Notes under the pieces: model-generated
What the model was told of the DNA's origin: nothing
The model's input: only the letters and a program-made list of their open reading frames with translations
The model's database searches: none
From: Actinomycetota bacterium
GTDB lineage: Bacteria > Actinomycetota > Thermoleophilia > Miltoncostaeales > Miltoncostaeaceae
NCBI GenBank assembly: GCA_963169235.1
Contig: CAUJCX010000035.1
Coordinates: 186,001-250,000 of the forward strand
Direction: 5' to 3'
Length of the DNA stretch: 64,000 bases
Program-made: the position numbers and the translations under genes
Shown here: positions 17,466 to 62,772 of the stretch, in pieces
Layout of the letters: each line of letters starts with the position of its first letter
Position numbering within the stretch: position 1 is the first letter of the stretch

Positions 17466-17492
17466 TCAACCTTCTCGGTGAGGTGCCGATAG
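17466..17492 (+). promoter_or_regulatory. Sigma28-type promoter of cheW (TCAA-N15-GCCGATAG)
   Basis: TCAA (17466-17469), 15 nt, then GCCGATAG (17485-17492), which matches 7 of 8 bases of the enteric FliA -10 GCCGATAA. It ends 63 nt before the cheW ATG. A chemotaxis gene is the expected target of such a promoter, which supports reading the similar sites in this window as real. Confidence 0.65.
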
Positions 17493-17555: not shown

Positions 17556-18002
17556 ATGAGCACCGACATCGCGGCAGATCCCCAATCGCGCCAGCTGGTG
17601 GTCTTCACCCTGGGCAGCGAGGAGTACGGCGTGCCGATCACGCTGGTCCAGGAGATCATCCGGTACACGTCCCCGCGCCCGATCCCGGGCTCGCCGTCGC
17701 ACGTCGAGGGCGTGATCAACCTGCGCGGCCGCATCATCCCGGTCGTCGACCTCCGCTCCCGTTTCGGCGCCTACGGCGACCGGCCGGAGGAGGCCAAGAT
17801 CGTGATCGTGGAGCTTCCCGACAGCACGATCGGCATGACCGTCGACGAGGTGAAGGAAGTCCTCACCGTCTCGTCCGACCAGTGCGAGCCGCCGCCGGAC
17901 GGCGCCGGTGACGCCGAGTACCTCGACTCGGTCGCCAAGCTCGACGGCCGCCTCCTGGTGATGCTCGACATGCCCAAGCTGTTCGGGGACGTCGGCTACT
18001 AG
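17556..18002 (+). CDS. cheW: Chemotaxis coupling protein CheW
   Basis: CheW links methyl-accepting receptors to the CheA kinase. The 148-residue protein has the two SH3-like subdomains: QLVVFTLGSEEYGVPITLVQ, PGSPSHVEGVINLRGRIIPVVD, then a second half ending in KLDGRLLVMLDMPKLFG. The GVINLRGRIIPVVDLR core is diagnostic. It stands alone, with no che or fla gene within the window, so it probably serves a system encoded elsewhere. AAGGAGCGG precedes the ATG, and a sigma28-type promoter lies upstream. An 11-bp-stem terminator follows. Confidence 0.93.
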   Translation: MSTDIAADPQSRQLVVFTLGSEEYGVPITLVQEIIRYTSPRPIPGSPSHVEGVINLRGRIIPVVDLRSRFGAYGDRPEEAKIVIVELPDSTIGMTVDEVKEVLTVSSDQCEPPPDGAGDAEYLDSVAKLDGRLLVMLDMPKLFGDVGY

Positions 18003-54931: not shown

Positions 54932-57829
54932 GTGCACCACGGGCGTCGCCCCCTCTTCATGCTGCTGATCGTGCTGGCCCTCACGGTCGCATCGATCGCA
55001 GCGGTGCTGACCAAGCCCGCGGTGCTGGGGCTCGACCTGCAGGGCGGCGTCGAGGTGATCCTCGAGGGCAGGCCGACCGCCGAGGCGGCGGTCAACAACG
55101 AGTCGCTCGAGAAGGCCGTCGAGGTCATCCGCAAGCGCGTCGACACGTTCGGCGTGTCCGAGCCCGAGATCCAGACGCAGGGCAACAACCAGATCGTGGT
55201 CGCGCTGCCGGGCGAGAAGGACTCGCAAACGGTGGTGAAGGACCTCATCCGGCCGGCGCAGCTGGCGTTCTACGACTTCGAGGCCAACGTCGTCGGCGCA
55301 CCGTCCGACGACCTGTACGCCACCGTGCTGCGCGCTCAGGACAAGGTGACGGTGAGCAACCCCGACAAGGGTGCCGCCACGCTGTACGCGTTCCTCACCA
55401 GCACCAAGAAGCTGGTGGCGGGGCCCGCGGTGGTCGAGGAGGGCAAGGCCGCGGCGTCGCGGGCCGAGCTGATGCAGTCGGTGCGCGACGCGGGCGTGCT
55501 CCCGAAGAACGTCACCGTGGTGCGGGTACCCAAGGGCCTCGTGGTCGTCCACGAGACCGAGCCGGTGCTGGCCAGCCGCCCCGACGGACCGAAGAAGACC
55601 CAGTACTACATCCTGCAGGACAACCCGGGGCTGACGGGTAACGACATCTCCCGGGCGGCGTCCATCCGCGACGTCGGCTCCGGCGGCAGCGGCGAGCCCA
55701 TGGTGACGATGGACTTCACCAGCGCCGGCGGCGACAAGTTCAAGGACGTCACGTACCAGCTGGCCTTGCGCGGCGAGACGCAGCAGCAGGTGCAGAGCTT
55801 CGCGGTGGTGCTGGACGGCGAGATGATCTCCCGGCCCACCATCGACTACAAGGAGCTGCCGTTCGGCATCGACGGCGGCGCGGCTCGCATCATCGGCAAC
55901 TTCACGCCCGAGTCGGCCCGCACCCTGGCCGACCAGCTGAACTCCGGCGCCATCCCCATCCGCCTCGTGACCGTCAGCCTCAAGCAGGTCGACGCCACCA
56001 TCGGTGCCCAGGCGCTGCGCCAGGGCATCATCGCCGGCGTGCTGGGCCTGGCCCTGGTGATGGTGTTCCTGGTGGCCTACTACCGCGTGCTGGGCTTGGT
56101 GGCCGCCGTGGGCCTGCTGATCTACGCGGCCCTGTACTACGCGGCGATGGTGCTGGTACCCATCACGCTGACGCTGCCAGGTATCGCCGGTGTCATTCTG
56201 ACCATCGGCGTCGCAGCAGATGCAAACATCGTCATCTTTGAACGAATACGAGAAGAGGGGCGTGCGGGCAAGAGCCCCGCCACCGCCCTGGCCATCGGCT
56301 ATCGCAAGGGCATCGCGGCGATCATCGACGCCAACGTCGTGACGCTGGCGACCGCGCTGATCGTGTTCCTGTTCGCCACGGGCGGCCCCCGCGGGTTCGC
56401 CTTCACGCTGGCCATCGGCGTCGTGCTGTCGCTGTTCACCGCCGTGGTCGCGACCCGCGCCATCTTCGGCGTCATGCTCGACTCGAAGTTCCTGCGCGAG
56501 GACAAGTACATGGGCCTGCGCCGGGGCCGGGTGCCGAAGTTCGACTGGGTAGGCCACTGGAAGCTGTGGGCGGCGCTGACCGTCATCCCCATGCTGTTCG
56601 GTCTCGGGTGGCTGGGCGTGGCCGGCCTCAACATGGGCCTCGACTTCGAGAGCGGCACCAGCATCACGACGTCGTACACCAAGCCGGTCACCGAGCAGCA
56701 GGTGCGCACGGTGATGTCGAAGGCGGGCTTCCCCGACGCCCGCATCCAGGGCACCAGCCAGACCATCGAGGGCCGGCAGGTGGACGGCTTCCAGATCCGC
56801 ACCGAGACGCTGACGCCCAAGGACGAGCAGCCGGTGCTGGACGGCCTGCAGAAGGAGCTTGGGCTCAAGATCCTGACCCGTGACGACGTGGGCCCCACGT
56901 TCGGTCGTCAGATCATCCGCAACGCGATCCAGGCGATCATCTTCAGCTTCATCGTGGTCGCGCTCTACCTGATCATGCGGTTCGAGTACCGCCTGGCCAT
57001 CCCGGCGATGGTGTCGGTGATCCACGACGTGCTGCTGTCAGTGGGCATCTACGCGGTGCTGGGGCACGAGGTGACCAGCGCCACGGTCGCCGCCATGCTG
57101 ACCATCCTGGGTTACTCGCTGTACGACGTGGTGATCGTGTTCGACCGCATCCGCGAGAACGTGCCGTTCATGCGCGGCCATCGCTACCGCGACATCGTCA
57201 ACCTGTCGGTGAACGAGACGTTCACCCGGTCGCTGATGACGTCGATGACCACGCTGGTGCCCGTGCTGGCCCTGTTCTTCTTCGGCGGATCGACGCTGAA
57301 GGACTTCTCGCTGGCCCTGCTGGTCGGCATCCTGGCCGGTGGCATCTCGTCGATCATCATCGCCGCGCCGCTGGCCTCGTACTGGAAGGAACGGGCCCCC
57401 AACGAGCGCCGCCTGAAGGCCCGGCAGGACAAGCGCTCCAGCCTGGCGCAGATGGACTCGGACGTGGTGGACGTGGGCGTGCTGGCCCGGGCCGAGGCCG
57501 CCCTCGACCGGGGTCCGGGCGCGCAGGGCCAGCGACTGGCGCTGCCCGCGGACACGGCTCCGGGCGAGCGCATCGATCCGCTGGAGGGCACCGGCGACGG
57601 CCCCGTGGGCGTGGTGGAGGACATCCCGGAGGACGGCGACGACCCGCCCGGCGACACCGTCACGACCGACGCGGTGGACGAGGCCCCCGCGGGCGGCGAC
57701 GCCGAGGCAGATCCGTCGCAGGACGACGCGCAAGGCGATGACGGGGACTCCAAGCGCGAGCCCGGCAGCCACCGTCCCGACCGCCAGCGCCGTCACCGCA
57801 AGATCCAGGAGCGCCGCCGGGGCCGCTGA
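54932..57829 (+). CDS. secDF: Protein translocase SecDF, single-chain fusion
   Basis: SecDF uses the proton gradient to pull exported proteins through the Sec channel. The 965-residue chain joins SecD (about 1-520; LGLDLQGGVEVILE, six membrane helices, GVAADANIVIFERIREE) and SecF (about 525-840; GLNMGLDFESGTSI, ILGYSLYDVVIVFDRIRENV). An unusual acidic then basic tail of about 120 residues (to RHRKIQERRRGR) is not part of the family. Codons around 56180-56265 are strikingly AT-rich (GCA, GAT, TTT, GAA, CGA, ATA) compared with the rest. It lies behind yajC, in the place where actinobacteria often have ruvCAB upstream. Confidence 0.95.
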   Translation: MHHGRRPLFMLLIVLALTVASIAAVLTKPAVLGLDLQGGVEVILEGRPTAEAAVNNESLEKAVEVIRKRVDTFGVSEPEIQTQGNNQIVVALPGEKDSQTVVKDLIRPAQLAFYDFEANVVGAPSDDLYATVLRAQDKVTVSNPDKGAATLYAFLTSTKKLVAGPAVVEEGKAAASRAELMQSVRDAGVLPKNVTVVRVPKGLVVVHETEPVLASRPDGPKKTQYYILQDNPGLTGNDISRAASIRDVGSGGSGEPMVTMDFTSAGGDKFKDVTYQLALRGETQQQVQSFAVVLDGEMISRPTIDYKELPFGIDGGAARIIGNFTPESARTLADQLNSGAIPIRLVTVSLKQVDATIGAQALRQGIIAGVLGLALVMVFLVAYYRVLGLVAAVGLLIYAALYYAAMVLVPITLTLPGIAGVILTIGVAADANIVIFERIREEGRAGKSPATALAIGYRKGIAAIIDANVVTLATALIVFLFATGGPRGFAFTLAIGVVLSLFTAVVATRAIFGVMLDSKFLREDKYMGLRRGRVPKFDWVGHWKLWAALTVIPMLFGLGWLGVAGLNMGLDFESGTSITTSYTKPVTEQQVRTVMSKAGFPDARIQGTSQTIEGRQVDGFQIRTETLTPKDEQPVLDGLQKELGLKILTRDDVGPTFGRQIIRNAIQAIIFSFIVVALYLIMRFEYRLAIPAMVSVIHDVLLSVGIYAVLGHEVTSATVAAMLTILGYSLYDVVIVFDRIRENVPFMRGHRYRDIVNLSVNETFTRSLMTSMTTLVPVLALFFFGGSTLKDFSLALLVGILAGGISSIIIAAPLASYWKERAPNERRLKARQDKRSSLAQMDSDVVDVGVLARAEAALDRGPGAQGQRLALPADTAPGERIDPLEGTGDGPVGVVEDIPEDGDDPPGDTVTTDAVDEAPAGGDAEADPSQDDAQGDDGDSKREPGSHRPDRQRRHRKIQERRRGR
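56180..56265 (+). other. Codon-anomalous island in secD
   Basis: Over about 28 codons spanning the conserved GVAADANIVIFERIREE helix, codons end in A or T much more than elsewhere in the gene (CCA GGT, GGT, ATT, GCA GCA GAT GCA, TTT GAA CGA ATA CGA GAA). The gene otherwise almost always uses G or C in the third position. Confidence 0.7.
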
Positions 57830-57852: not shown

Positions 57853-57879
57853 TCAAGGCCCCGCGCCGGCACCCGATAA
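57853..57879 (+). promoter_or_regulatory. Sigma28-type promoter before the first unrecognised-family gene (TCAA-N15-CCCGATAA)
   Basis: TCAA (57853-57856), 15 nt, then CCCGATAA (57872-57879). It differs from the enteric GCCGATAA by one base. It ends 46 nt before the ATG at 57926. Confidence 0.5.
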
Positions 57880-57925: not shown

Positions 57926-58252
57926 ATGAGCGACGGGTGCCCTGCGGACGACAGGCGCGGTGACGGGCAGGCGGTGAACGGGGCGTTCACGCTCAGCGGC
58001 CTGGCGGGAGCGGGGGGCGACCTGGCCTTCGGCCCGGTGGTGTTCGCGCGGCGTCTGGACGAGGCGCCCGACCCGGGCAGCGTGACGCTCACCGTCGACG
58101 CGGCCGAGAACGTCCCGGACGGCGGCGTCGCGGTCATGGGCGACGGGGGCTTCGCTCCCAGCGCGGAGGGCATGACGCTGGTGATCGCCGCCAACGCACC
58201 GGGCCGGTTCGTCGTGCGTGGCCGCTACGTCGTGACGTCCTCCTCTCAGTAA
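57926..58252 (+). CDS. Unrecognised-family protein A: single C-terminal-type domain
   Basis: The 108-residue product is soluble, with no signal peptide or membrane helix. Residues about 18-108 align with the C-terminal domains of the next two genes: NGAFTLSGLAG, then VTLTVDAAENVPDGG, GGFAPSAEGMTLVIAANAPG and RFVVRGRYV. The shared pattern is G-x-F-x-x-x-G-x-A near the start, a V-x-L-x-V-(D/E) strand, (G/x)FAPSxxGxTVxV, then GPF/GRF..GxF/GRY. It lacks the NCD triplet that the other two share. I know no family with this pattern. AAGGAGG precedes the ATG, and a sigma28-type promoter lies upstream. Confidence 0.7.
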   Translation: MSDGCPADDRRGDGQAVNGAFTLSGLAGAGGDLAFGPVVFARRLDEAPDPGSVTLTVDAAENVPDGGVAVMGDGGFAPSAEGMTLVIAANAPGRFVVRGRYVVTSSSQ

Positions 58253-58272
58253 CGCCGCCGAACTGCCGATCA
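58246..58272 (+). promoter_or_regulatory. Sigma28-type promoter before the second unrecognised-family gene (TCAG-N15-GCCGATCA)
   Basis: TCAG (58246-58249) lies at the end of gene A, followed by 15 nt and GCCGATCA (58265-58272). It ends 106 nt before the ATG at 58379. Confidence 0.5.
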
Positions 58273-58320
58273 CGAAGACAGCGGGCGCTGCTTGCGCGCG
58301 TTCCACCCCACCATGTGAAA

Positions 58321-58335
58321 GCGCCCTGCGGGCGC
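58321..58335 (+). terminator. Hairpin GCGCCC-TGC-GGGCGC before gene B
   Basis: The stem is 6 bp with a 3-nt loop and no T-run. It could be a leader structure of gene B rather than a terminator. Confidence 0.3.
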
Positions 58336-58378
58336 ACGAGGCTCGCCTGGACGTCGGGCCTGACGGAGGACTCTTTCA

Positions 58379-60106
58379 ATGATGATGAACCTGGTCCTTG
58401 CCATCGCCGCCGTGGGCGCCCTGATGCTGCTGCTGGTGTTGCGGCGCAAGCAGGCTGCCGCGGGCGCGTCGGACAAGGGGGCCAAGGCCAAGGCGCCGAA
58501 GCCCGCCAAGGCGGCGAAGGCCTCGAAGGTGAAGGCCTCTCGGGTGAAGGCCACGAAGGAGAAGGCCCCGAAAGAGAAGTCGGGCCGCCGGTTTGGACGC
58601 CGTGGTGGGGCGGACTCCGGCGACGACATCGCGGACACCGTGGACGTCGCCCCCGTCATGACCCCCGTGGTGGGCGTCGCCCCCCTGCCCGCCGAGACGG
58701 AGCCCGCCTCCGCCCTCGCGTTCGCCCAGGAGAGCGGTGACGAGCCGGACTGGGACACCATGCGCGCCGAGATGATGGGGCTGGAGCCCCAGGCCGAGCC
58801 CGCGCTGGCGACGGCCGAGTCGGCCGCTGCGGTCGCGCCGGTGGCGCCGGAGGCGGAGGCCCCCGTCCAGACGTGGGACGACGACCTCATCACCGAGCCC
58901 GGCTGGCCCATCCCTGGCGATCAGGATCCGAGCTGGGCCGAGGCGCACGCCGTCGGCGCTGCGGGCGCGCCCGCGGAGACCATCGGCGCGCCGTCCGAGC
59001 CGCCGATGCTGGGCGCCGACCCGGGCGACCAGCCCACCGGCACGTTCGAGTGGCCGTCCGCGGACCAGCAGTGGCAGGCCGCGAGCGAGACCGCGGACGA
59101 GGCGGACGCCGCCGCGCCGGCGTTCGACGACGCCCAGGACACCGGTGCCATCGGCTTCATGGACTTCGCGGCCGTGAACGCGTCCCCGGAGGCCGAGCCG
59201 GCCGCCGAGCTCGCGCCGGTGGAGGAGCCGGTGCAGGAGTTCGCTCCGGCTCCCGAGTTCGCTCCCGCTCCCGAGTTCGCCCCGGTGGAGGCCCCGGTGC
59301 AGGAGTTCGCCCCGGCCCCCGAGTTCGCTCCGGCTCCCGAGTTCGCTCCGGCCCCTGAGTTCGCTGCCGCTGCGGAGCTCGCTCCGGTGGCGGAGCCGGT
59401 GCAGGAGTTCGCCCCGGCCCCCGAGTTCGCTCCGGCTCCCGAGTTCGCCGCCGCTGCGGAGCTTGCTCCGGTGGCGGATCCCGTGCAGGAGTTCGCTGCG
59501 GCCCCCGAGTTCGCTCCGGCCGCTGAGTTTGCTGCCTCCCCCGAGTTCGCCCCGGTGGCCGACACGGCCCCGGAGTTCGCTGCCCCCCCCGAGTTCGCCC
59601 CCGTGGCGGAGATCGCCCCGGTCGAGGCGTTCGCTCCCTCGGCGGTGCAGGAGTTCGCCGCGGTGTCGGCTCCCGAGGACGCGCCGGCGCTGGCGCCGCC
59701 CGCGGACGTGGCACCCGTCGCGGCGTTCGACTGGGCGCCCGCCGAGACGCCGGCTCCCGTCGATCCCCCCGCGAGCGCCGCGATGCCGCTCGACGACGCG
59801 CTCACCGGGCGCTTCGCGATCGGTGGCATGGCCCTCGACGGCGGGCACGAGGCCCTCACGCGGGTCGCGTTCCGGGCCCCGCTGGTGGGTGACGTGCCCA
59901 CGGCCTGGGGCCGTCGCCACGACGCCGACCTCGCCTCCGGCACCATCGTGCTGCAGGTGGAGGCCGTGATGAACTGCGACGCCTCCAGCCTCGAGGTGAT
60001 GCTCGACCCGGGCTTCGCCCCCACGCGCGACGGCTTCTCGGTGCGGCTGGCATCGGTGGCCAAGGGTCCGTTCGCGGCCAGCGGCACGTTCTGGGTGGTG
60101 CCGTAG
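58379..60106 (+). CDS. Unrecognised-family protein B: membrane anchor, basic stretch, EFAPAP repeats, C-terminal domain
   Basis: The 575-residue protein starts with a membrane helix (LVLAIAAVGALMLLLVL, residues 5-21), then a lysine-rich, histone H1-like stretch (about 23-75; KAKAPKPAKAAKASK), acidic and Pro/Ala-rich regions, and a repeat (285-427) of EFAPAP units broken by ELAPVAEPVQ. The C-terminal domain (about 474-575) has TGRFAIGGMA, IVLQVEAVMNCDASS, FAPTRDGFSVRLASVAKGPF. The charge after the helix puts the rest in the cytoplasm by the positive-inside rule. Three ATG codons in a row follow GGAGG at 9 nt. The function is unknown; the repeat suggests a flexible stalk or spacer. Confidence 0.7.
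   Translation: MMMNLVLAIAAVGALMLLLVLRRKQAAAGASDKGAKAKAPKPAKAAKASKVKASRVKATKEKAPKEKSGRRFGRRGGADSGDDIADTVDVAPVMTPVVGVAPLPAETEPASALAFAQESGDEPDWDTMRAEMMGLEPQAEPALATAESAAAVAPVAPEAEAPVQTWDDDLITEPGWPIPGDQDPSWAEAHAVGAAGAPAETIGAPSEPPMLGADPGDQPTGTFEWPSADQQWQAASETADEADAAAPAFDDAQDTGAIGFMDFAAVNASPEAEPAAELAPVEEPVQEFAPAPEFAPAPEFAPVEAPVQEFAPAPEFAPAPEFAPAPEFAAAAELAPVAEPVQEFAPAPEFAPAPEFAAAAELAPVADPVQEFAAAPEFAPAAEFAASPEFAPVADTAPEFAAPPEFAPVAEIAPVEAFAPSAVQEFAAVSAPEDAPALAPPADVAPVAAFDWAPAETPAPVDPPASAAMPLDDALTGRFAIGGMALDGGHEALTRVAFRAPLVGDVPTAWGRRHDADLASGTIVLQVEAVMNCDASSLEVMLDPGFAPTRDGFSVRLASVAKGPFAASGTFWVVP
59231..59660 (+). repeat. EFAPAP repeat array in gene B
   Basis: Short units E-F-A-(P/A)-(A/V)-P recur about 20 times, grouped into longer units that begin with V-Q-E-F-A and contain A-E-L-A-P-V. 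The DNA repeats are imperfect, with mixed GCC/GCT and GTG/GTC codons, so the array is old rather than recently expanded. Confidence 0.85.
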
Positions 60107-60149
60107 CAGGCACACGCGGCGCGGGAGGGGCGTTCGGTCCGTCCCGCGC

Positions 60150-60176
60150 TCAAGTGGCGTTGACAACTGCCGATGA
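60150..60176 (+). promoter_or_regulatory. Sigma28-type promoter before the third unrecognised-family gene (TCAA-N15-GCCGATGA)
   Basis: TCAA (60150-60153), 15 nt, then GCCGATGA (60169-60176), ending 33 nt before the GTG at 60210. AACTGCCGAT is identical, 10 nt long, to the same region before gene B. Confidence 0.55.
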
Positions 60177-60209
60177 GGCGGACGACCCGTAACGCTCGTC
60201 CGTGAGGCA

Positions 60210-61103
60210 GTGGTGTTCAAGACGCTTCGAAACGTGTTCCTGCTCGCCGCCGGCATCTACATCGCGCTGCGCTGGCTGCGGCGCTCCAACGCCCGTGCGA
60301 TCGCCCGCACGGCGGCGGCAAACCAGGCGATCCCGCCGGCTGCGCCGGCGCCCGCGCCCGAGCCCGTCGCCACGCCCGTGCCGGCCGCGCCCGAGCCCGC
60401 CGCGGAGGTCGCTGCGGTGCCTGCGTCGCCGTCCGTGCCGCTCGCCGCGCCGGTCATGGTCGCTCCCGAGGTCGAGCCCGAGCCCGTGGCCATGCCGGTG
60501 ACGGCGGGCGCCGAGGTGGCCGCCACCACCGTCGCCCCGGTGGCCCGCGGCAACGTGGCACCCCGCGACCATGCGTCGGTGTTCGACGCGCACATCTGCT
60601 CCGCTCCCGCGATCGAGCCCGTGCTGGACGGTCCGGTGGACGACGCCCCGGCGCGCGCCGTGCTCGAGCAGCTGACGGCCGCGCTGCGGGAGGTCGGGGA
60701 CGGCACCTGGATGGTGGGCGACGACGCCGCGGACGAGCCGGACGTCGACGCGCCCTCCGCCGCGACACCTGCCCAGACGCCCGCCCCCGCGCCGGACGGC
60801 GCGGTGAGCGGCACGTTCGTGGTCAGCGGCATCGCCTCCGGGCCCCGCCAGGTGATGATGGGCGTGGTGGCGTTCCCCCGCACGCTTGCGCTGGCGCCGA
60901 CCGACTGGCAGCGCGGTGGCGCGGCCCCGTCCGGTGTGCTGGTGCTCGACGTCGACAACACGGCCAACTGCGATCCCGAGACCGTGGGCGTGGTGTTCGT
61001 CAACGGCTATGCGCCGTCCACCGACGGTTTCACCGTGCGGGTGGTCAGCGCAGCGGCCGGGCCGTTCACGGCCGGCGGGCGTTTCACCTTCGCCGACGGC
61101 TGA
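60210..61103 (+). CDS. Unrecognised-family protein C: membrane anchor, Pro/Ala linker, C-terminal domain
   Basis: The 297-residue protein has a membrane helix (NVFLLAAGIYIALRWL, residues 8-23) followed by basic RRSNARAIAR, a Pro/Ala/Val-rich linker (about 45-130), a short helical stretch (VLEQLTAALREVGDGTWMVG), and the shared C-terminal domain (about 196-297; VSGTFVVSGIAS, VLVLDVDNTANCDPET, GYAPSTDGFTVRVVSAAAG, PFTAGGRFTF). It shares NCD and GFT/GFS..AAxGPF with gene B. The start is the GTG at 60210 or 60213. It is likely to work with genes A and B, but nothing shows how. Confidence 0.68.
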   Translation: MVFKTLRNVFLLAAGIYIALRWLRRSNARAIARTAAANQAIPPAAPAPAPEPVATPVPAAPEPAAEVAAVPASPSVPLAAPVMVAPEVEPEPVAMPVTAGAEVAATTVAPVARGNVAPRDHASVFDAHICSAPAIEPVLDGPVDDAPARAVLEQLTAALREVGDGTWMVGDDAADEPDVDAPSAATPAQTPAPAPDGAVSGTFVVSGIASGPRQVMMGVVAFPRTLALAPTDWQRGGAAPSGVLVLDVDNTANCDPETVGVVFVNGYAPSTDGFTVRVVSAAAGPFTAGGRFTFADG

Positions 61104-61125: not shown

Positions 61126-61140
61126 TAGCCTCGGCACGTG
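61126..61140 (+). promoter_or_regulatory. Leaderless promoter of the UbiB-type kinase gene
   Basis: TAGCCT (61126-61131), 6 nt, then GTG at 61138; no ribosome site. Confidence 0.55.
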
Positions 61141-62772
61141 ATGTGGACGGGGCGGCGAGAGAACCTGGGGCGGGTCCGCGAGATCGGCCAGGTGGCCGCG
61201 CGGCACGGCTTCGGATGGGCGTTCGGGCGCACGATCCCCGGCGAGACCCGCGACCCGCGCACGCGCGGGCGGCGCCTGCGCGCCATGCTCGACGAACTGG
61301 GCCCGACGTTCGTGAAATTCGGCCAGCTGCTGTCCACGCGCCCGGATCTGCTTCCCCCTGACGTGGTGTCAGAGCTGCGCACGCTTCAGGACCACGCCCG
61401 TCCGGTGCCGTTCGACGCGATCCGGGGCGTGGTGGAGACCGAGCTGGGGTGCGCGCTCGAGGACGCGTTCGCCGAGTTCAGCACCGAGCCGCTGGCGGCC
61501 GCATCCATCGGCCAGGTGCACACCGCCCGCCTCGTCGGCGGGGCGGAGGTGGTGGTGAAGGTGCAGCGCCCCGGGGCCGAGCGCACCGTGCAGGCCGACG
61601 TCGCCCTGATGTACCAGCTCGCCGGGATGCTGGGGGAGCGGGTGCGGCGACTGCGGTTCGTCGACCTGGCCGCCCTGGTGGGCGAGTTCGACGCCAGCCT
61701 GCGGCGCGAGCTCGACTACGGGGTCGAGGGGCGGGCGCTCGAGCTCTTCCGCGAGAGCTTCCGGTCGAGCGACAACGTACGGGTACCCGCGGTGCACTGG
61801 GACCAGTCCACCACCCGCGTGCTGGTGATGGAGCGCCTGCCGGGCACGCCGCTGTCGCAGCTGGACCTCGCCCCGTGGAGCGACGCCGACCGCCGCACGC
61901 TGGCCGCGCGCATCTCGCACACGTGGCTCGAGATGGTGTTCGAGCACGGGCACTTCCACGCCGACCCGCACCCGGCCAACATCATCGTGGAGGGCCCCGA
62001 CCGCATCGGCCTGATCGACTTCGGCATGGTGGGGCAGCTGTCCGCGCGCGATCGCGAGGCCGCCATCCGCCTGCTGGTGGACGTGATGGACGGCAACGCG
62101 GAGGCCCTGCCACGCCGGCTGCGCGCCCTGGGCGTGCGCTATCCGCAGGCCCGCGAGCAGGAGCTGGCCGACCACCTGGGCATCGTGCTGCGCCGCTACG
62201 CCGACCAGGCCATGGGCGACATCGACGCCCGTGCGCTGGTGTCGGAGATCTTCGCCACCGTCTACTCGCTGGACGTGACGCTGCCGAGCCACTGGATGCT
62301 GCTCGACAAGACGCTGGCGACCCTTGCCGGCGTGGCGCTGGAGGTGTCGCCCGCGTTCGACGTGTTCGCGCTGGCCCGGCCGTACGCCACCCGGGTGATG
62401 GCCCACCGCCTGCGTCCCGACCGCCTGCTGATGCAGGCCTACGACGACGCCGAGCGCTACGCCGGAGCGTTCCGCGAGTACCCGTTCCAGGTCGCCGACG
62501 TGCTCGAGGGCGTCACCAGCGGCACGCTGGAGGGCACGGTGCACATCGCCGAGCTCGACTCTGCGGCGCACCACGCGCAGGCCAGCATCAACCGCGTCGC
62601 CCTGGCCATCGTCAGCGCGTCGCTGTTCGTGTCGTCCGCCATGATCGCCACACTCGCACGAGGAGGTCCCGACGTCGCGGGCCTCGCGTTGGCCGCGGGC
62701 CCGCCGTTCGTCGTCGCCGCGGTGCTGGCGGGCTGGGTGGCGGCGGGGGTCGTGCGATCGCGGCGCTGGTGA
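61138..62772 (+). CDS. ubiB: UbiB/ABC1-family atypical kinase
   Basis: The family aids quinone synthesis or lipid trafficking through an atypical ATPase. The 544-residue protein has KFGQLLSTRPDLLPPDVV (the KxGQ motif), the Ala-rich loop AAASIGQVHTARL in place of a P-loop, VVVKVQRPG, FHADPHPANIIVEG and LIDFGMVGQL (the DFG-like metal motif), and two C-terminal membrane helices (ALAIVSASLFVSSAMIATLA and PFVVAAVLAGWVAAGVV). The GTG at 61138 or ATG at 61141 begins it. It is probably not part of the upstream family and may act in menaquinone formation, which is inference. Confidence 0.9.
   Translation: MMWTGRRENLGRVREIGQVAARHGFGWAFGRTIPGETRDPRTRGRRLRAMLDELGPTFVKFGQLLSTRPDLLPPDVVSELRTLQDHARPVPFDAIRGVVETELGCALEDAFAEFSTEPLAAASIGQVHTARLVGGAEVVVKVQRPGAERTVQADVALMYQLAGMLGERVRRLRFVDLAALVGEFDASLRRELDYGVEGRALELFRESFRSSDNVRVPAVHWDQSTTRVLVMERLPGTPLSQLDLAPWSDADRRTLAARISHTWLEMVFEHGHFHADPHPANIIVEGPDRIGLIDFGMVGQLSARDREAAIRLLVDVMDGNAEALPRRLRALGVRYPQAREQELADHLGIVLRRYADQAMGDIDARALVSEIFATVYSLDVTLPSHWMLLDKTLATLAGVALEVSPAFDVFALARPYATRVMAHRLRPDRLLMQAYDDAERYAGAFREYPFQVADVLEGVTSGTLEGTVHIAELDSAAHHAQASINRVALAIVSASLFVSSAMIATLARGGPDVAGLALAAGPPFVVAAVLAGWVAAGVVRSRRW

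Follow-up and report, generated by a model that had tools for sequence, protein, structure and literature searches.

A protein family of the Miltoncostaeaceae with a predicted H-type lectin fold, a probably cytoplasmic location and likely sigma28 control

Three adjacent genes of a Miltoncostaeaceae genome, here termed A, B and C, encode proteins that end in the same type of domain and belong to an undescribed protein family without a described function. We tentatively propose, at somewhat less than an even chance, that these proteins are membrane-tethered, oligomeric scaffolds in the cytoplasm that serve the surface-motility machinery and are made together with the sigma28 regulon.

Results

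The stretch of DNA that was analysed, referred to as the window, comprises 64,000 nucleotides (G000:C35:186001-250000, where G000 is the window's genome; G001 denotes a sister species in the same genus). On its + strand, which also carries all features of A, B and C given below, A, B and C follow one another consecutively; they lie between secDF (54932-57829) and a ubiB/ABC1 kinase gene (61138-62772). The three open reading frames have the positions and lengths that a first-pass annotation had assigned to them: gene A (57926-58252) encodes 108 aa, gene B (58379-60106) encodes a protein of 575 aa without Pfam or NCBIfam matches, and gene C (60210-61103), which has a GTG start, encodes 297 aa. 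In this window, SecD and SecF form a single fused protein of 965 aa, whose C-terminal tail is long and acidic.

A PAP2-secDF-A-B-(C)-ubiB locus is kept across most of the Miltoncostaeaceae (Thermoleophilia); as far as contig ends permit, nearly every relative examined shows this gene order for PAP2, secDF, A, B and ubiB. The survey of related genomes that the annotation had suggested hence finds A and B conserved between secDF and ubiB in most of the family. Gene C is confined to two genomes, both of the window's genus, and since the tree in addition places it on the B side (100/100 for C; 99/97 for A versus B+C), it is best explained as a B duplicate. The core of the locus is therefore two genes, A and B; the set of three that had originally been described holds for the window's genus but not elsewhere.

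The C-terminal domains of A (57971-58249), B (59798-60103) and C (60798-61100) are homologous and 93-101 residues long. Their pairwise local alignment scores of 111, 119 and 159 compare with shuffled means of 29-33 (z 14-24; reached in 0 of 1000 shuffles), and a profile built from the three sequences retrieved 22 further domains in relatives (E 1e-12 to 1e-35), which bears out the annotated common domain. Across the resulting alignment of 25 domains, Gly, Ala and Asn positions are invariant and a GFAPxxxGF core is conserved. The domain is present in 18 of 399 genomes of the class, every one of them in the Miltoncostaeaceae; none was detected in other families among 396 genomes of the phylum, nor in g9, a reduced and well-sampled genus of the Miltoncostaeaceae. 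The named relatives in a GTDB scan with a B-only alignment are Thermoleophilia and Miltoncostaeaceae metagenome assemblies. Searches of Pfam, NCBIfam, PHROGs and the PDB with single sequences and the profile returned nothing significant for the domain, neither A, B and C nor any of the 25 domains had a Pfam match at E up to 1, and the viral contigs searched held no close relative of C.

The domain had been called unrecognised, which is true of the sequence databases but not of its fold. AlphaFold models of the A and C domains are all-beta (pLDDT 95.5 and 96.5, respectively) and show the six-stranded antiparallel beta-sandwich of the H-type lectin fold. In the PDB, both find discoidin II as their best structural match (A: Z 9.1, 84 residues, 2.3 A; C: Z 8.5, 82 residues, 2.2 A); as Z values of 7 to 8 are common for unrelated models, the weight of this result rests on the consistency of the match list. 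Among the best 20 or so matches of each model, nearly all are domains of the H-type lectin fold or tailspike ends, namely the C-terminal domains of discoidin I and II, Helix agglutinins, SLL-2, R-pyocin fibre tips and the ends of phage tailspikes; unrelated folds start near Z 4.7. For several of the viral matches, the annotation names an H-type lectin domain or a tail fibre. The annotation had pointed to a lack of structural agreement between the domains as a possible objection; it does not apply to A and C, whose models share their fold, and the B domain is 38-39% identical to that of C.

Membership of the domain in the Pfam family H_lectin (PF09458) is not supported by its sequence. Even with E values up to 10 allowed, the window's genome had no PF09458 match, and the profile-profile comparison that had been recommended (hhalign against a small H-lectin alignment of HPA, checked against PDB 2ccv, an SLL-2 fragment and three actinobacterial PF09458 loci) gave a local match of 16 columns at a probability of 6%, which is not significant. 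Overall, the domain is predicted with high confidence to adopt the H-type lectin fold, while common descent with the lectins is unproven.

Protein B starts with a hydrophobic anchor (58379-58441), predicted from its charges to be oriented N-out, and continues with a basic stretch rich in Lys, Arg and Ala (58442-58609). No Lys or Arg precedes the anchor, whereas five are found in the next 15 residues and ten in the next 30. The pattern holds for a set of ten B proteins, in which a hydrophobic segment of 16-23 residues is preceded by 0-1 basic residue and followed by 4-7 basic residues in 15 and 5-14 in 30. In C, a short hydrophobic segment (60231-60269), a probable anchor, also precedes basic residues; in C and the anchored A proteins, the segments are shorter and the charge bias is weaker. 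The A proteins of the window's genome, G015 and G020, which represent three genera, lack any hydrophobic start, anchor or signal peptide. The annotation of A as the bare domain hence applies to the window's species but not to its sister species G001, whose anchored orthologue carries a long linker behind a hydrophobic segment at its N-terminus. B of G015 and A of G004 seem at first to have lost the anchor, but their hydrophobic segment is present in another frame; this looks like a frameshift in the assemblies and was discounted.

According to the positive-inside rule, the charge pattern of the B proteins would place their linker and domain in the cytoplasm, and together with the A proteins that lack a signal it argues against a location on the surface. 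The family is therefore probably cytoplasmic and most of its members are probably tethered to the membrane, B in an N-out/C-in orientation, which makes the surface assembly originally envisaged unlikely. The proposed coexistence of soluble and tethered forms of one domain is supported, and that they form an interacting set is plausible.

B linkers differ greatly in length between relatives; the one in the window contains a motif common to some of them (EPDWDTMRAEMMG; 58742-58780), the sequence ITEPGWPIPG (58889-58918) and a region of Pro/Ala/Glu/Phe repeats with EFAPAP-type units (59205-59638). The second of these usually takes the form TEPGWPxPGxxDxxW, and all 11 B linkers retain its core P[GA]WPx[PA], where shuffling predicts 0.61 of 11. 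In several genera, the A-type linkers have LAEW-type repeats. By their sequence, the motifs of both linker types look like partner-binding peptides.

Each of the three genes had been assigned a sigma28-type promoter of its own, and a motif search agrees. Sigma28/WhiG-type boxes lie before A (57853-57879; TCAA-N15-CCCGATAA), where the box is conserved in relatives, before B (58246-58272; TCAG-N15-GCCGATCA) and before C (60150-60176; TCAA-N15-GCCGATGA), and they correspond to the sigma28 regulon promoter TAAA-N15-GCCGATAA or a close variant. The pattern TMAR-N15-SCCGATNA has exactly three matches in the 64 kb (57853, 58246 and 60150). Shuffles predict 0.03 matches and the genome-wide rate of four relatives about 0.3-0.6; three boxes, each just upstream of one of the genes, are therefore far above chance. 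A looser pattern gave 12-23 matches in each of four non-flagellate genomes per 2.1-2.6 Mb, many of them probably within coding sequence.

The strict pattern TMAR-N15-SCCGATAR occurs at six, five and seven sites in G000, G001 and G012, respectively, with none in the reversed control; three non-flagellate genomes show a small excess (5, 3 and 2 versus 1, 2 and 0 in the control). Downstream of the strict boxes are cheW, cheR, cheY and A in G000, and flagellin, fliJ, fliM, cheA and both A and B in G012, with CheW identified by Pfam and the other motility genes named from reading their translations. Most relatives have a box in front of A, B or both, among them G007 and G020, which are non-flagellate. 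A FliA/WhiG-family sigma factor is encoded in the window's genome (G000:C8; E 7.9e-84, above the TIGR02479 cut-off), and such factors exceed the cut-off in 19 of the 22 genomes outside g9 and in none of g9, the genus that also lacks the domain; they are present in most genomes that carry the domain. It is thus likely, judging from these sequence motifs, that a sigma28 (FliA/WhiG-type) factor drives the expression of A, B and C along with that of flagellar and chemotaxis genes. A previous study reports that flagellar and WhiG sigma factors have the common consensus TAAA / GCCGATAA and that three Thermoleophilia encode single-motif RsiG homologues beside WhiG (PMC8325347).

Several other genes stand behind strict boxes as well. 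Within the window, TCAACCTTCTCGGTGAGGTGCCGATAG (17466-17492) lies upstream of a cheW gene (17556-17999). In both species of the window's genus, a box precedes the gene of an RpoD-like sigma factor divergent from pilT (L079, G000:C15:58699; L093, G001:C50:6954). Of two further boxes, one precedes a protein that combines a signal-like segment at its N-terminus with RCC1-like repeats (L094, G000:C39:94420), and the other precedes, in a non-flagellate genome, a probably exported 221-aa protein rich in Thr, Ser and Ala (L081, G020:C114:8344).

With respect to motility genes, PilT is found in 17 of the 18 domain-bearing genomes and flagellar rod proteins (PF00460) in 11 of 18, with none in g2, g7 and g8. 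Two genomes outside g9 lack PilT, of which G005 has no domain and G002 one weak copy. Fisher tests of co-occurrence with the domain ranked pili first (9e-8), ahead of sigma28 (3e-5) and flagella (7e-5), but these values ignore kinship and most negatives belong to one genus, so that the co-occurrence is confounded by descent. A purely flagellar role was rejected, as the domain also occurs in g2, g7 and g8, where rod genes are missing; the data are compatible with a function in pili, chemosensory arrays or flagella. No flagellar rod gene was found in g2, g5, g7, g8 and g11, most of which keep a FliA/WhiG-type sigma factor above the cut-off, so the sigma factor outlives the flagella in this lineage.

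Discussion

The reading of A, B and C as cytoplasmic scaffolds for motility machinery draws on the homology of the proteins, their one conserved locus, the boxes shared with flagellar and chemotaxis genes, the co-occurrence with the sigma factor and with PilT, the H-type lectin fold of the A and C models, the positive-inside pattern of the B proteins, the signal-less A proteins and the linker motif kept in all 11 B linkers. By analogy with H-type lectin modules, which are usually trimers, we infer that the C-terminal module would oligomerise, possibly as a trimer. B, and in the window's genus also C, could hold this module at the cytoplasmic side of the membrane through the N-out/C-in anchor and the basic stretch, from where the long disordered linker would project it and offer the conserved PGWPxPG peptide to a putative partner. 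A, soluble or anchored depending on the species, might mix with the oligomers or cap them, and the resulting multivalent membrane scaffold may position or tune type IV pili, chemosensory arrays or flagella. It counts against this proposal that the lectin fold normally acts outside cells and binds glycans, that C and the anchored A proteins show the charge bias less clearly, and that linkers bearing such motifs could bind anything, the division machinery included.

The fold itself raises the question whether the proteins are surface lectins after all, anchored in the membrane with a Pro/Ala linker that crosses the wall and a tip that binds polysaccharide, thereby helping motile cells to attach or detach. 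The length of the Pro/Ala linkers, the control by sigma28 and the adjacent secDF would all suit such lectins, yet the strongly basic stretch follows rather than precedes the B anchor, A has no signal in three genera and the PF09458 sequence match is missing, and we consider this explanation unlikely. The layout of the B proteins recalls ZipA, the membrane anchor of FtsZ, which consists of an N-out anchor, a basic stretch, a Pro-rich linker and a cytoplasmic C-terminal domain. The B proteins have these parts in the same order, with a topology assigned by the charge rule only, and add a conserved linker peptide; they could accordingly be adaptors that link the membrane to the division machinery or to another cytoskeletal polymer and are produced when sigma28 switches the lifestyle of the cell. 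However, the FtsZ-binding C-terminal domain of ZipA was not detected (Pfam, E up to 1) and the A and C models have another fold, the promoters are of a type common to motility genes, and the absence of the domain from g9 and from the other families of the class shows that it is not a general division factor, all of which makes a ZipA-like role quite improbable. Lastly, one could imagine ligand sensors whose cytoplasmic module binds a small molecule, such as a sugar nucleotide or a second messenger, and thereby adjusts motility or the sigma switch. The fold often binds ligands, one domain occurs in soluble and tethered forms under sigma28 control, and WhiG is controlled by c-di-GMP in related actinobacteria (PMC8325347). 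But the most conserved residues are mainly structural Gly, Phe and Pro, a polar pocket is not obvious from the sequence and no signalling domain is attached, and we regard sensing as very unlikely.

Among known systems, the H-type lectins (PF09458; Helix pomatia agglutinin, the discoidin C-terminal domain, SLL-2) resemble the predicted fold over the whole A and C domains. Unlike them, the present family is membrane-tethered and probably cytoplasmic, and its likeness to lectins is one of predicted structure, with no significant match in sequence. The tips of R-type pyocin fibres and the phage tailspikes (LKA1 gp49, Sf6, Kp32gp38) share the fold as well, but the locus between secDF and ubiB has no phage genes beside it and its products are not fibres. 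As to regulation, the promoter class (TAAA / GCCGATAA) is the same as that of the c-di-GMP regulon of WhiG/RsiG in Rubrobacter, a switch proposed to control type IV pili there, while PilT co-occurs with the domain here; the excerpts of that work describe no lectin-fold membrane target (PMC8325347).

Taken together, the Miltoncostaeaceae harbour an undescribed family whose fold can be predicted and whose locus is conserved. Its likely regulator is a sigma28 factor; in this lineage, the flagellar sigma factor survives where flagella do not. One could speculate, with considerable doubt, that this bacterial family has moved a fold of lectins and tail-fibre tips into the cytoplasm, as the oligomerising head of scaffolds for sigma28-controlled motility machinery, also in genera that lost their flagella. 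Species of Miltoncostaea are in culture, which makes the A/B/C family directly testable. If true, it would be unexpected for the H-type lectin fold to be used in the cytoplasm on a membrane tether, and the family could reveal targets of sigma28 in Actinobacteria without flagella, in addition to the type IV pili that have been reported in Rubrobacter.
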